A stretch of DNA of 64,000 bases. Source: Salegentibacter mishustinae. Lineage in GTDB: Bacteria > Bacteroidota > Bacteroidia > Flavobacteriales > Flavobacteriaceae. A program made the position numbers and the translations under genes. This document shows positions 49,008 to 64,000 of the stretch, piece by piece. How positions within the stretch are numbered: position 1 is the stretch's first letter; the number at the start of each line of letters is the position of its first letter. The notes below the pieces were generated by a model. The model ran no database searches, was not told the DNA's origin, and saw only the letters and a list, made by a program, of their open reading frames with translations. The DNA lies in the NCBI RefSeq assembly GCF_002900095.1, contig NZ_LLKN01000001.1:434001-498000 (forward strand). Direction: 5' to 3'.

Positions 49008-49021
49008 AAAAAATGCTTGCT

Positions 49022-49939
49022 ATGTCTATTCATGTTGAAGGAATTTCAAAATTTTATGGCGAACAAAAAGCGCTGGATTCTGTTTCTTTTAAGCTGAACA
49101 AAGGAGAAATTGTGGGTTTTTTGGGACCTAACGGCGCCGGAAAATCTACTTTAATGAAAATCCTTACCGGTTATTTAACTGCTTCAGAAGGAAAAGCAGA
49201 AGTAAACGGAATTTCCCTTGAAGACGATTTACATAAAATTCAGCAGCAAATTGGATATCTACCGGAACACAATCCATTATATACTGAAATGTACGTTCGG
49301 GAATACCTGGAATTTAATTCAAGGATCTATAAAACCGATAAATCACGCATAGAAGAAGTTATTGAACTCACCGGTCTAAAACCCGAAGCCAATAAAAAAA
49401 TAGAGCACCTCTCTAAAGGCTATCGCCAACGTGTTGGACTGGCTACTGCCCTGCTACACGATCCACAGGTTTTGATTCTAGATGAGCCTACCACTGGATT
49501 GGATCCTAATCAATTAGTAGAGATCAGAAATCTTATTAAGAATATTGGAAAGGAAAAATTGGGAAAAACAATATTTCTTTCTACTCATATTATGCAGGAA
49601 GTTGAAGCCGTTTGCGACCGGGTAATTATTATTAATAAAGGAAAGGTAGTTGCCGATAAAAACTTAAAAGATTTAAGGGAAGAAAATGAACAGGTAATTT
49701 TTGTGGAATTCGATTACCGGGTAGAGCAAGTTGCGCTTCAGAAATTACCGCATCTTATTTCAGCAAAAAATGTAGGCGGATTTGCCTATGAACTCACCTT
49801 TGACACCAAAAAAGATATGCGCCCTGCAGTATTCGATTTTGCCCATGATAACGGATTGAAAACTTTACAGCTAAATCAAAAAACAAAGAATTTAGAAAGT
49901 TTATTTGCTGAACTTACAGCCCCCCAACAAGCCCCCTAA
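49022..49939 (+). CDS. gldA: Gliding-motility ABC transporter ATP-binding protein GldA
   Basis: This 305-residue ABC ATPase has Walker A (FLGPNGAGKSTLMK near residue 36), a Q-loop (IGYLPEHNPLY), the signature (LSKGYRQRVGLATALLHDP near 136) and Walker B (VLILDEPTTGLDP). These are the features of GldA, the ATPase of the Gld A/F/G transporter required for gliding in Flavobacterium. The start at 49022 is chosen from promoter position. The last residues (TAPQQAP) are encoded inside a GC-rich repeat element that has evidently replaced the natural 3' end. The membrane partners GldF and GldG are not next to it. Confidence 0.9.
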   Translation: MSIHVEGISKFYGEQKALDSVSFKLNKGEIVGFLGPNGAGKSTLMKILTGYLTASEGKAEVNGISLEDDLHKIQQQIGYLPEHNPLYTEMYVREYLEFNSRIYKTDKSRIEEVIELTGLKPEANKKIEHLSKGYRQRVGLATALLHDPQVLILDEPTTGLDPNQLVEIRNLIKNIGKEKLGKTIFLSTHIMQEVEAVCDRVIIINKGKVVADKNLKDLREENEQVIFVEFDYRVEQVALQKLPHLISAKNVGGFAYELTFDTKKDMRPAVFDFAHDNGLKTLQLNQKTKNLESLFAELTAPQQAP

Positions 49940-50063
49940 CCCCCGAAGGGGGAACTCTAAGCGTTGCGCAATATACCTAGCCAACTCGACTGAATTTATT
50001 TTGAATAAATAATAAAACCAAAGAATCAGCAACTAAACTCCCCCTTCGGGGGCCAGGGGAGCT
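49931..50063. mobile_element. 133-bp MITE-like element with GC-rich palindromic ends
   Basis: The left end (49931-49956) and the inverted right end (50036-50063) share the layout GCCCCCT-(A/G)(A/G)-CCCCC-GAA-GGGGGA. Each end is itself a small palindrome. The 79 bp between them are AT-rich and non-coding. The left end contains the gldA stop codon and the right end abuts the stop of the next gene. Ends of the same design flank the DUF559 insertion in metH, so this looks like an empty relative. Confidence 0.75.
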
Positions 50064-53012: not shown

Positions 53013-56000
53013 TTAATCTGCAATATTAGGGTTGAGCCATTTTTCGGCTTTTTTCAAGGGAATTCCTTTTCTTTCGGCAAAATCTTTCACCTGGTCATCT
53101 TTAATTTTCCCCAGGCCAAAATAACGGGCTTCGGGGTTAGCGAAATAATATCCGCTAACACTGGCTGCCGGCCACATCGCTAAACTTTCGGTAAGTTCAA
53201 CTCCAATTCGTTCCTTTACCTTTAAAATTTCCCAAATACTCAACTTTTCCAAATGATCTGGGCAGGCAGGATAGCCCGGGGCGGGACGAATTCCTTTATA
53301 AGTTTCCTTTATTAATTCTTCATTGCTTAAATTCTCTTCGGGCGCATAACCCCAGTCTTCCCGTCTTATTTTTTTATGTAAATATTCCGCAAAAGCTTCG
53401 GCGAGTCGATCGGCCAGCGCTTTGATCATTATCGAATTATAATCGTCATGATTTTCTTCAAATTTTTTGGCAAGTTCTGCGGTTCCAAAACCTGTAGTGA
53501 CGCAAAAACACCCAATATAATCCTGGATTCCACTTTCCTTTGGCGCAATAAAGTCCGAAAGTGCAAAATTTGGTTTTCCGCCGTGCTTTTTTAATTGTTG
53601 GCGAAGCGTTCTGAAAACCATCTTTTTTTCTTCGGAATTTTCTTCATATTCAACTTCAATATCATCATCATTAAGCGTATTCGCCGGAAACAATCCGTAA
53701 ACCGCTTTCGCTTTCAGCAATTTTTCATCCAGAATCCTTTTCAGCAAAACTTTAGCATCTTTGAACAAAGAAGTTGCCTGTTCCCCAACTACCTTATCGG
53801 TTAAAATATCGGGATACCTGCCGTGGAGATCCCAGCTTCTAAAAAACGGGCTCCAGTCTATATAAGCTTCCAGTTCTTTTAAATCGAAATCATCTATTTG
53901 CTGAATTCCTATTTTATTTGGCTCTGTAATTTGGGTTGTTTTCCAATCTATGGAATACTTATTTTTTCGCGCTTCTTCAATAGAAAGAAAAGATTTCACT
54001 TTACTTCTTTTCTTAAAATTAAGCCTGAATTTATCATATTCGGCTTTAAGATCGCTCATATATTTAGTACGCGTTTCTTCCTTTAAAAGATCGCCAATTA
54101 CTGTGACTGCACGCGATGCATCGTTCACATGTGCCACCGCATTTTTATACTGCGGATCTATTTTCACCGCCGTATGCGCTTTTGAAGTGGTGGCGCCACC
54201 AATAAGTAGAGGCACGTCAAAATTTTGGCGTTCCATTTCCTTGGCCAAAAAAACCATCTCGTCTAACGAAGGTGTTATTAGTCCGCTTAAACCAATAGCA
54301 TCTACGCCTTCTGCTTTTGCAGTTTCTATAATTTTTTCCGGAGGCACCATTACGCCCAGGTCAATAATTTCATAATTATTACAGCCTAAAACCACACTCA
54401 CAATATTCTTCCCAATATCGTGAACATCTCCTTTAACGGTTGCCATAAGAACTTTTCCCGCCCCCCCGGCCCCCGATGGGGGAGCTTTCTTGAGCGTTCG
54501 TAAAATTTTATCCAGCACCTGATCTAAATTAGTGAGCACTTCTTCATTAGTAAACCTAATCACACGGAAGTCGTGTTCTTTTAACCAGGCCGTCCTCTCC
54601 TTATCACTTTTTTTATTTTCGGGTAATTGATGAATTAAACCATCAACTTCTACTACAAGTTTCTTTTTAAGGCATACAAAATCGGCTATATAACTCCCAA
54701 TAATATGCTGCCTTCTAAACTTAAAGCCTTCAAGTTGCTTATTTTTCAGTGATTCCCAGAGGACAGTTTCAGCTTCGGTTGGCTGGTTATATCGGTTCTT
54801 TTTAGCAAATTCTTTCATTAAACCGTAGAGTGCCGGTTCAGCCGTCTGCCAGTAGCGCTCCCCCTTTGGGGGTTGGGGGGCTTCTTTTGCTGCTTCAATA
54901 TATGGTAAAAGGTAGGCCACTGCTTTTTTCATAACCCTGGCCGATTTTACTACCTGCGGAAGGAACATTTTCCCGCTTCCAAAGAGATCGCCTACTACGT
55001 TCATGCCAATCATTAAATGACCTTCTATTACCTCAATAGGTTTTTCGGCTTCCTGGCGAGCCTGTTCTATATCCTCTAAAATATAAGCGTCTATTCCTTT
55101 CACCAAAGCGTGGGTAATCCTGTCCTGAAGCAGATTTTCCCTCCACGAAAGATCGACTTTGCTTGCTTTTTTAGAGCCCACTACAGTGTCTGCGAATTCA
55201 AGTAAACGCTCGGTAGCGTCTTCTCTTCTATCAAGAATTACATCTTCTACATGTTCTAAAAGGTCTTTGGGAATATTATCATAAACTTCCAGAAGCGCGG
55301 GATTTACGATCCCGATATTCATTCCTGCTTTAATCGCATAATATAAAAACACCGAATGCATCGCTTCCCGCACCGGGTTATTTCCGCGGAAAGAAAATGA
55401 AACATTACTCACCCCGCCACTAATACTGCAATGCGGAAGATTTTCTTTTACCCAACGCGTTCCTTCAATAAAATCTATGGCATTGCGTTTATGCTCGTCC
55501 ATCCCCGTTCCTACAGGAAAAATATTCAGGTCAAAAATGATGTCTTCCGGCGGAAATTTCACTTTATCCACCAAAATCTCATAGGAACGTTTTGCGATTT
55601 CAATTCTACGTTCATAATTATCGGCCTGCCCAACTTCATCAAAAGCCATAACGATAACGGCTGCACCATAGCGCTTTATTTTTTTAGCGTGTTCAATAAA
55701 TTCTGTTTCGCCTTCTTTAAGGCTTATAGAATTCACCACGCATTTTCCCTGCACCACCTGTAAACCGGCTTCAATAATTTCCCATTTAGAACTATCTATC
55801 ATAATAGGAACACGGGCAATATCAGGTTCAGCAACAATTAGGTTCAGGAATTTAACCATGGCTTCTTTACCGTCAATAAGACCATCGTCCATATTAATGT
55901 CGATAATCTGCGCGCCACCGTCCACCTGGTCTCTTGCTACTTCCAGGGCTTCTTCAAATTTTTCCTCTTTAATTAACCGAAGAAATCTTTTGGAACCTGC

Positions 56001-56147
56001 AACATTAGTACGCTCCCCAACATTTACAAAATTGCTGTCGGGAGTAATTATTAAAGGTTCGAGACCAGATAATTTTAAAGGCCTGACTATTTTTTCTACT
56101 CCGGTAGATTTTTCCTGATCTTTTTCTTTATTCATCGTTTCTATCAT
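53013..56147 (-). CDS. metH: Methionine synthase, pterin/cobalamin/activation subunit with an in-frame DUF559 insertion
   Basis: The 1044-residue product carries the methyltetrahydrofolate domain ([16 protein letters not shown] near residue 40), the cobalamin domain with cap, and the activation domain ([12 protein letters not shown] near 970). The cobalamin ligand motif DVHDIG is near 572. The homocysteine-binding domain is a separate gene upstream, overlapping by 4 bp. Between the cap helix (LLPYIEAAK, ending at 421) and the cobalamin Rossmann domain ([16 protein letters not shown]) are 142 extra residues (422-563). They contain a DUF559 endonuclease-like domain and are bounded by Pro/Gly-rich peptides encoded by inverted repeats. 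Without them the protein would be about 902 residues, the usual size. The reading frame is fully open, so the enzyme is probably made with the insert in a tolerant linker. Confidence 0.93.
54459..54884 (-). mobile_element. DUF559 endonuclease element inserted in frame in metH
   Basis: The 426-bp insertion (142 codons) encodes a Vsr/PD-(D/E)XK-like DUF559 domain. It shows [37 protein letters not shown], the catalytic-type YIADFVC and VVEVDG, and the closing [13 protein letters not shown]. At each end lies a GC-rich palindrome, 54459-54486 and 54857-54881, in inverted orientation. Each has the design GCCCCCC-NN-CCCCC-NNN-GGGGGAGC. The insertion length is a multiple of three and both repeats are read through as APQPPKGER and [10 protein letters not shown]. 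The DUF559 domain shares frame and strand with metH and has no obvious separate promoter. An AUG at Met near residue 447 could start an independent product. Confidence 0.85.
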
Positions 56148-62559: not shown

Positions 62560-62585
62560 AGCCCCTAGCCCCCAAAGGGAGAATT
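62560..62585. repeat. Solitary GC-rich palindromic repeat between cobA and the siroheme gene
   Basis: AGCCCCTAGCCCCCAAAGGG and the following GAGAATT match one end of the elements at 49931 and in metH. No inverted partner is seen nearby. It encodes the last residues of the cobA product (SPFGG) and occupies the space just before the next ATG. Confidence 0.65.
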
Positions 62586-63350
62586 TATAATTACTGATTC
62601 TTGAATTGAATTTTCCAGAACCGCTTTAAGTTGTCCGCTTTCACGAACTACTTCGCCAATCACGATAATTGCCGGGGCGGTAAGTTGTTTTTCAGCTACT
62701 ACTTTTTCTATACTTTTTATCATTCCAAAGCCTGACTTTTCATTATTGGTAGTTCCATTCTGAATAATTCCAACCGGAGTATTTTCTTTTCCGTAGTAGC
62801 TAAAAATATCCACGATTTCAGGGAGTTTTGCCATTCCCATTAGAATCACTACCGTAGCCGTAGATTGTGCCGCGAGCCGAACATCTTCTGAAAGTTTCTT
62901 TTGGGTGGTGGTTCCTGTAATTACCCAAAAACTCTCGGAAGTTCCTCGTTGGGTAAGCGGAATTCCAATATTTGCAGGAACTGCTATTGAAGACGTAATT
63001 CCTGAAACAACTGCAGTTTCCAAGCCTTTACTTTTGGCATAATTAATTTCTTCAGATCCTCTGCCGAAAATAAAAGGATCGCCTCCTTTTAACCGAACCA
63101 CGTGCCCTCTTTCCAAAGCATATTTCACAATAAGCTCGTTGATCTCATCTTGAGAATACCTATGCTTATCTTTTCGTTTTCCAACAAAAATATGCTCGGC
63201 TTGAGGCGCATATTCCAGTAATTCGCGGTTAATAAGCGCATCAAAAAGCACAACTTTGGCATCTTTTAAAGTATTTAATGCTTTAAGTGTTATCAATTCC
63301 GGGTCTCCGGGACCAGCGCCTACCACGCTTAGTTTTGGTGAATTATACAT
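62565..63350 (-). CDS. cobA: Uroporphyrinogen-III C-methyltransferase
   Basis: This 261-residue SAM-dependent enzyme methylates uroporphyrinogen III twice to precorrin-2. The start has LSVVGAGPGDPELITLKALNTL, then VRLKGGDPFIFGRGSEE near 90, VVSGITSSIAVPANIGIPLTQRG near 113, and VVILMGMAKLPEIV near 163. ATG 63350 gives the conserved beginning; an ATG nine codons upstream overlaps the preceding gene further. The C-terminal SPFGG is encoded by a repeat. With the two downstream genes and the reductase upstream it forms the siroheme and sulfite-reduction cluster. Confidence 0.94.
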   Translation of the reverse strand: MYNSPKLSVVGAGPGDPELITLKALNTLKDAKVVLFDALINRELLEYAPQAEHIFVGKRKDKHRYSQDEINELIVKYALERGHVVRLKGGDPFIFGRGSEEINYAKSKGLETAVVSGITSSIAVPANIGIPLTQRGTSESFWVITGTTTQKKLSEDVRLAAQSTATVVILMGMAKLPEIVDIFSYYGKENTPVGIIQNGTTNNEKSGFGMIKSIEKVVAEKQLTAPAIIVIGEVVRESGQLKAVLENSIQESVIINSPFGG

Positions 63351-64000
63351 TTTGTACCTCCTTTGTTCTAAATGCATCTACCCTTTTTAGGAATAGTTGC
63401 GCGTCTTCTAAATATTTATTGGCAAAAGCTTCGGTTGGCTCTTGCTCGTTCATTTGATAAGCGAATTCTTTGAAGGAAGTCGATAATTCGATTTTACCGG
63501 TGTCTACAAACAACTCGTCAAACTGTGCAATTATTCCTGCTTGCGTATTGGTTTTCAAATCTTCGGCCAACAACAATGCTTTAGCCGAATTCACTATTGA
63601 AGTATAGGAATGATAAATACTATCTGCCCAGGCTTTTCTTTCCTGTGCACTTTTGGCATTATCTATTTTCTCTTCGCTTTCAAATAATAAGGTAGCGATA
63701 AGATCTATTACCACGCCGGCACACTCGCCCACTCCCACTGCTTTTATATAAGGTTTTTCGTGACCCCAATCCACAAATTCATTTTCTGTTAGGTTTGAGG
63801 TATCGGCCAAATCTTTTAGCAAATCGTAGAAATAAGTTTTTCCCTGGCGATCGTAATATTCGGCGAATTTCTCTTCGGAATTTGCTTTCGCTTCAAAATC
63901 GTTAAGTAACAATCGTAAAGCTTGCGGCCCGCGTTTACTGGGCACTTTTATCACTTTATCGGCAAAGCGGCCTTTTCCATTTCCCAGCGTTCCACCGCCA
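63343..64000 (-). CDS. HEPN-domain C-terminal part of a nitrite/sulfite reductase, partial
   Basis: The frame stays open to the right edge, so this is the last 218 codons of a larger gene. The first visible residues, GGTLGNGKGRFADKVIKVP followed by SKRGPQALRLLL, are the end of a siroheme-dependent reductase. The remainder (about 200 residues) is a helical HEPN-like domain (FEAKANSEEKFAEYYDRQG, AGVVIDLIATLLFESEEKID and IYHSYTSIVNSAKALLL). I recall this fusion as common in flavobacterial sulfite/nitrite reductases. It overlaps cobA by 8 bp. The reductase identity is supported by the siroheme and ferredoxin-reductase genes beside it. Confidence 0.82.
   Translation of the reverse strand, partial: GGGTLGNGKGRFADKVIKVPSKRGPQALRLLLNDFEAKANSEEKFAEYYDRQGKTYFYDLLKDLADTSNLTENEFVDWGHEKPYIKAVGVGECAGVVIDLIATLLFESEEKIDNAKSAQERKAWADSIYHSYTSIVNSAKALLLAEDLKTNTQAGIIAQFDELFVDTGKIELSTSFKEFAYQMNEQEPTEAFANKYLEDAQLFLKRVDAFRTKEVQNV

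Follow-up and report, generated by a model that had tools for sequence, protein, structure and literature searches.

A candidate selfish nuclease cassette: a DUF559 domain between inverted REP-like hairpins, carried in frame inside methionine synthase and other proteins of Bacteroidota

The methionine synthase gene (metH) of Salegentibacter mishustinae is interrupted, in frame, by a DUF559 endonuclease-type domain lying between two inverted REP-like hairpins, and we give a probability of roughly 0.55 to the reading that this insert is a selfish nuclease cassette which remains unspliced in its host protein. Sequence comparison shows the anatomy of the element, its range of hosts, its polymorphism and some horizontal movement.

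The window, i.e., the whole stretch of 64,000 nucleotides that was analyzed, contains on its minus strand a metH frame of 1044 aa (53013-56147) encoding the folate, B12 and activation half of the enzyme. Its Pfam domains are, in order, Pterin_bind (residues 44-282), the B12-binding_2 cap (341-413), DUF559 (445-552), B12-binding (564-657) and Met_synt_B12 (755-1028). DUF559 (PF04480; 54492-54815, minus strand, contig 488492-488815) scores 121.1 bits against a gathering score of 20.6 (E 2.4e-35). The whole element, delimited by sequence, Pfam and comparison with congeners, occupies 54460-54881 (minus strand) and consists of REP-like repeat, DUF559 and inverted REP-like repeat, free of stops. On the coding strand, the N-terminal-side end is GCCCCCCAACCCCCAAAGGGGGAGC (54857-54881, minus strand), a Pro/Gly linker translated as EAPQPPKGE, and the C-terminal-side end is the inverted GCTCCCCCATCGGGGGCCGGGGGGGC (54460-54485, minus strand), a linker translated as KAPPSGAGG. 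The inverted match between these two ends scores 28, compared with 14-17 in six shifted controls. An initial annotation had placed a DUF559 domain between cap and cobalamin-binding domain, bounded by inverted GC-rich palindromes read as Pro/Gly linkers and with the MetH motifs intact around it, and these observations agree with it, host Pfam domains being recognized on both sides. Its figure of 142 codons is the span of the coordinates it gave; the insert is indeed in frame and stop-free, and the net gain is 135 codons, since shared host motifs are 181 residues apart in the filled allele and 46 in empty congeners.

Nor did the insertion turn out to be exact and clean, as first described. Empty alleles read IEADKSSKRSSAGK and variants, and the window's allele reads IEAAK, linker, DUF559, linker, AGK; as read from these alleles, the element is a substitution for a short host loop rather than a clean insertion. 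Comparing filled and empty alleles by eye revealed no target-site duplication. An intein had already been discounted in the initial annotation and was rejected here as well: the Pfam scan of the metH ORF found no Hint or splicing domain, and splice-junction residues are absent from the ends. An intron was likewise rejected, as an Rfam scan of 53900-55400 gave a single match, to ctRNA_p42d, at 19.1 bits against a gathering score of 50. The insert is present as well in records named as S. salarius, S. holothuriorum and S. echinorum, and it is therefore not an assembly artefact of a single genome.

Fifteen Salegentibacter genomes were searched, the window's own included, and 14 gave a metH match. 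Counting the window's genome, the site is filled in nine of the 14 and empty in five; alignment with relatives thus confirmed the insertion, five of the 13 other genomes with a match having an empty site. Four filled copies are decayed (G403, G408, G401, and G404), with nuclease motifs and DNA palindromes both eroded and EAETVLW replaced by EAETILG in three of the four. Even so, the 181-residue length between host motifs, and the frame, are kept in 9/9 filled copies, decayed ones included. Among three intact copies omega was 0.05-0.11. A host tree of 14 rows (MetH C-half plus metF) requires at least three changes between filled and empty, and pairs filled G400 with empty G257 (99/100). Synonymous divergence of the insert was compared with that of 1200 nt of flank. 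Between G400 and G402, insert dS was 0.40 and flank dS 1.20 (Fisher p 1.7e-6), and between G400 and the window 0.53 and 1.19 (Fisher p 4e-4); these were the only pairs of 36 with a significantly closer insert (p<0.01). As judged by these divergences, the insert is shown to have passed between Salegentibacter species without its flanks. In five of the 36 pairs the insert was more distant than the flanks (p<0.01; e.g., window and G401, p 3e-4), as would fit older, separate lineages.

Beyond the genus, 72 distinct filled MetH loci were collected, and insert and flanks were compared in the 107 pairs with host pS <= 0.65. The insert was closer in four pairs (p<0.01), more distant in nine, and neither in 94, so that descent of the MetH insert appears to be mostly vertical with some exchanges. 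Excess identity of the insert was found in Aquimarina (L103 and L107; 0.43 vs 1.13, p 3.4e-4) and in Winogradskyella (L104 and L105; 0.24 vs 0.61, p 2.5e-3). A recent single insertion in the window's genome is not supported, the metH site being filled across many genera and most pairs fitting vertical descent. MetH was matched in 117 of 149 sampled family genomes, with a frame of filled length in four (G000, G047, G146, and G015); frames of 956-966 codons (G075, G073, G021, and G080) were left out of the reading. When 28 of the sampled MetH loci were re-read at site 1, G047 was filled and G096 had a palindrome-only insert. Some metH genes hold two copies. In G215 these lie at two sites and share 86% aa and 81% DNA identity, and the double copies of L152 and L120 share 62% and 44% protein identity.

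DUF559 is embedded in many other proteins. PF04480 was present in 161/397 family genomes, and a profile of 17 embedded copies had matches in 163/395 phylum genomes. Among the 150 best DUF559 matches listed for family genomes, 59 sit within frames no shorter than 297 codons; for GIY-YIG, used as a control and matched in 149/149 family genomes, the by-eye count was 2 of the 150 best matches listed (417 and 435 codons). We read 191 distinct DUF559 elements, 176 in long frames and 15 freestanding, and assigned hosts by conserved flank motifs. As loci were picked as best matches and long frames, the counts per host that follow are not frequencies. Elements occur at four MetH sites (site 1, 74; site 3, 6; site 2, 3; N-half, 2), in tRNA synthetases (LeuRS site 1, 26; LeuRS site 2, 4; MetRS, 4; IleRS, 2), and in RecG (13), HemD (9), HsdR (4), Eco57I-like proteins (3) and HemF (3). 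HisD, acetyl-CoA synthetase, methylmalonyl-CoA mutase and HsdM have two each, and 15 elements are single cases, including L212 with masked flanks.

Hosts were checked with Pfam in 29 host proteins and four host pieces, and in 13 families a recognized host domain lies on both sides of DUF559: MetH, LeuRS, IleRS, MetRS, RecG, tryptophan dioxygenase, adenine deaminase, acetyl-CoA synthetase (AMP-binding), methylmalonyl-CoA mutase, UvrD-like helicases, HsdR, and Eco57I-type and type ISP restriction proteins. A host domain was recognized on one side in GH2, M23, HsdM, N6_N4 methylase and MmeI-like proteins, and DUF559 stands at the protein end in HisD, HemD, HemF, RNase H, GATase_5 and FGase. No host Pfam match was obtained for L211, an HsdS by eye. 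Nine HemD loci (L014, L027, L030, L042, and L070-L074) have DUF559 at the N-terminus, the domain falling on its own branch, and may represent either a single fusion or a pair of genes joined by read-through. Restriction-modification hosts recur among loci from the more distant phylum genomes (L201, L204-L210, and L213-L216). A MetRS insert on a contig labeled as a Streptomyces griseus MAG (L159) is very similar to that of a Chitinophaga MAG (L157), and the contig is probably misbinned or mislabeled.

The ends of the metH element are shown to belong to a genomic repeat family. The 13-nt palindrome core has six matches in the window with up to two mismatches, at five places, one being counted on both strands; 0.75 are expected, and 0/100 shuffles attained six. 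In the window's own genome the end repeat has nine copies at up to three mismatches (the metH copy counted), compared with 0 for a reversed-pattern control. Three further window features have no strand assigned. Two form a gene-less inverted REP-like pair between two ORFs, a nuclease-free, REPIN-like arrangement: copy 1 (49931-49955) provides the stop codon of an ABC-transporter-like ORF (49013-49939), and copy 2 lies at 50038-50062. The third is a solitary repeat (62561-62583) that encodes the C-terminus NSPFGG of the ORF at 62565-63377.

Across elements the recurring end form is GCCCCCC-NN-CCCCC-NNN-GGGGG-AGC, inverted at the opposite side, with variants. The two ends are identical over 28 nt in L143; in L215 they align over 40 columns with a single gap and a single mismatch. 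Against controls from windows shifted by 500-900 nt, with the 99th percentile as threshold, inverted ends were found in 76/175 embedded elements and direct ends in 22, leaving 99/175 below the inverted threshold; the possibility, raised initially, that the same palindrome-flanked unit recurs in other genes is borne out for its in-frame residence in many unrelated proteins, and for inverted ends at this strict threshold in the 76 only. The inverted score was better than the direct score in 131 of the 175, worse in 38 and tied in six. Hairpin stems of at least 7 were present on the N side of 81/175 embedded elements, on the C side of 65/175 and on both sides of 50, compared with 31/690 control windows. 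For freestanding genes the corresponding numbers were 10/15, 12/15 and 8, with 14/15 having a stem on one or both sides (control, 3/58), and direct similarity of the two sides beat inverted similarity in 10/15, inverted beating direct in 5/15. Two freestanding DUF559 genes of the window's own genome (L002 and L003) lie between other genes and have differing hairpin ends, those of L003 resembling, on visual inspection, another and longer repeat family.

The domain itself is of a nuclease type. A structure model of the MetH cap-DUF559-B12 region, built from 51 filled sequences, had a mean pLDDT of 79.5 and a pTM of 0.53, with pLDDT <50 at residues 1-4, 41-48, and both linkers (141-153 and 274-280). 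In Foldseek searches, the predicted fold of the insert matched 3HRL (TMt 0.90, rmsd 1.5) and the flanks matched MetH structures. By profile, DUF559 matches 3HRL (E 2.8e-30) and, over profile positions 51-122, PDB 3R3P (E 3.6e-6), an entry that bears the title 'Mobile intron protein'. On this profile evidence the embedded domain is kin to the mobile-intron nuclease 3R3P, which we take to be I-Bth0305I. Residues E32, D61, E72, D74 and H78 are invariant in 17 diverse embedded copies and probably have a catalytic role. A phage or plasmid vehicle was considered and rejected: the DUF559 relatives in 39 plasmid and three phage records are all distant (<60% identity), and the best among 71 viral-contig loci reached 51%.

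A weakly resolved tree of 118 DUF559 domains (123 columns; MetH site 1 thinned to 38 of 68 rows) separates HemD-fused, freestanding and embedded copies (SH-aLRT 99, 98, and 88, respectively), with the embedded branch holding 97/118 rows. Copies group by insertion site, with 18 site changes on the tree vs 72.7 when shuffled. The exceptions are a MetH site 2 copy beside a MetH site 1 copy in one genome, a GH2 copy among Ignavibacteria MetH site 1 copies, and LeuRS site 1 copies in more than one branch. Palindrome class was tried as a marker of nuclease lineage and dropped, linkers differing on two LeuRS site 1 branches in an informal comparison. By eye, insertions adjoin conserved motifs (a MetH motif, LeuRS TTRPDT, RecG TATPIPRT, and HsdR Walker A). 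This clustering by host site and this proximity to conserved motifs, together with the kinship to a mobile-intron nuclease and horizontal movement at the same site, are what classical site-specific homing would produce, each lineage cutting its own conserved empty allele and being copied in by repair, with the palindromes as linkers or hitchhikers that have no role in mobility. We regard such homing as the strongest competitor, though an unlikely one at perhaps half the weight of the preferred reading or less: hairpins accompany one or both sides of 14/15 freestanding DUF559 genes, hairpin ends recur across hosts that have no common target sequence visible, and three of the insertion sites also harbor solo ends.

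Those solo GC palindromes lie in MetH site 1 (G096), MetH site 2 (G176 and G396) and LeuRS site 2 (L015 and L033), three of the loops used by DUF559. LeuRS site 1, re-read in 30 loci, holds DUF559 in two, and some of the others have in-frame repeats of unrelated families; MetH site 2 also holds other repeat families without DUF559. The nuclease-free repeats in the LeuRS editing-domain loop include a 22-bp perfect hairpin (L324) and translated repeats seen by eye (L329, L331, and L346). As solo palindromes and unrelated repeats occupy them, the insertion loops of DUF559 are general landing places, and since the LeuRS site 1 and MetH site 2 loops hold other families, recurrence at the same site may reflect tolerance alone. 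A solo palindrome may have preceded the cassette or may be what stays behind when the cassette is lost. Such entry of gene-less repeats into the same loops, in frame, would be expected if another enzyme (e.g., a Y1 transposase) or plain recombination between dispersed repeats moves the REP-like sequences and DUF559 is trapped cargo, and intragenic REPs are known (PMC3733652, partial text). We think this improbable, more so than homing, given that a single nuclease family is found in all hosts read, GIY-YIG having two long frames of 150 matches listed, and that conserved residues are kept by purifying selection. That DUF559 was domesticated, i.e., fused to each host and retained for a benefit to or regulation of the enzyme, would suit the constant 181-residue length and the vertical descent of most MetH pairs, but is very hard to credit with the insert absent from 5/14 genus genomes, motifs eroded in four copies, and hosts in metabolism, tRNA charging, helicases and restriction that have no evident common need.

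Under the preferred reading, an unspliced selfish cassette, we infer from sequence that DUF559 drives movement. Its cuts would fall at or close to the REP-like ends or, alternatively, at empty sites, and recombination repair would then copy the cassette into the cut site. Survivors would be the copies that land in frame within a tolerant loop, and we propose that they survive because a GC palindrome, when translated, can serve as a Pro/Gly linker. The cassette would stay unspliced and be inherited with the host gene, occasionally spreading again at the same site and decaying in place with the host frame preserved. Several observations sit uneasily with this scheme: the insert is the closer partner in only 4/107 MetH pairs and 2/36 Salegentibacter pairs (5/36 being more distant); clustering by site is unlike the expectation from free REP-to-REP movement; 99/175 embedded elements fall below the threshold for inverted ends, and freestanding genes more often have direct ones (10 vs 5 of 15); DUF559-free repeat families occupy LeuRS site 1 and MetH site 2 loops; and target-site duplication is not apparent by eye.

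A broader proposal, which we hold more tentatively and judge to fall short of even odds, is that these elements form an undescribed, phylum-wide class of mobile element living inside proteins, in which DUF559 would recognize its own hairpin ends, jump between genes and persist unspliced through ends that act as neutral linkers, with solo REP-like inserts as the non-autonomous or relic form. No description of protein-embedded DUF559 was found in the literature searched, from which most subscription papers and bioRxiv preprints were out of scope. Homing nucleases in conserved genes usually spare the host by means of self-splicing introns or inteins (PMC3943268, partial text). Here a nuclease-type domain appears to reside permanently in MetH, tRNA synthetases, RecG and other proteins. 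If so, selfish DNA would have another route into conserved genes, one that also gives rise to new multidomain proteins; the inserts would amount to a natural experiment on the insertion tolerance of protein loops, and the unexpected Pro/Gly linkers and endonuclease domains of annotated Bacteroidota enzymes would be explained.

Each known system shares part of this arrangement. Freestanding DUF559 or Vsr-like proteins, such as 3HRL and Caulobacter VsrA, have the same domain, but are separate genes, and embedded copies form their own branch. VsrA has been linked to DNA damage (PMC12907096, partial text), and in Legionella a DUF559 gene lies within repeated segments that the authors consider potential, unconfirmed recombination hotspots (PMC12308824, partial text). 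EDxHD is named as a homing family (PMC3943268, partial text), and the catalytic domain of EDxHD homing endonucleases (I-Bth0305I) is related by profile (3R3P, E 3.6e-6); unlike these, the metH element has no self-splicing intron or intein around it, stays in the host frame, has REP-like ends, and enters many kinds of host. Inteins with a homing nuclease are also translated in frame within conserved enzymes and have a nuclease-type domain inside, whereas the metH element has no Hint or splicing domain and no junction residues, and its linker ends are permanent. In fungal mitochondrial rps3, LAGLIDADG ORFs are homing nucleases joined in frame to a single organellar gene, at its end or close to it. 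They resemble our element in joining an unspliced nuclease frame to a host gene; our element differs in its kind of nuclease, in its internal sites, in its repeat ends and in having many hosts, all bacterial. Rickettsia palindromic elements and intragenic REPs are short palindromes in frame within functional genes, including tRNA synthetases and repair genes (PMC3733652, partial text). The ends of the metH element are likewise in-frame palindromes within a protein gene; the partial text of that source mentions no nuclease domain for the Rickettsia elements, whereas here two inverted copies enclose DUF559. REPs and REPINs are multicopy hairpin repeats that also occur as inverted pairs, and the metH end repeat has nine genomic copies and one such pair (49931-50062), with no GTAG or CGTC tag evident by eye in the printed repeats. 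As in REPIN/RAYT systems, according to partial source text, hairpin repeats occur both as inverted pairs and as scattered solo copies, and one nuclease gene is associated with them; unlike in those systems, that gene encodes DUF559 instead of a Y1 transposase and is fused into host ORFs.
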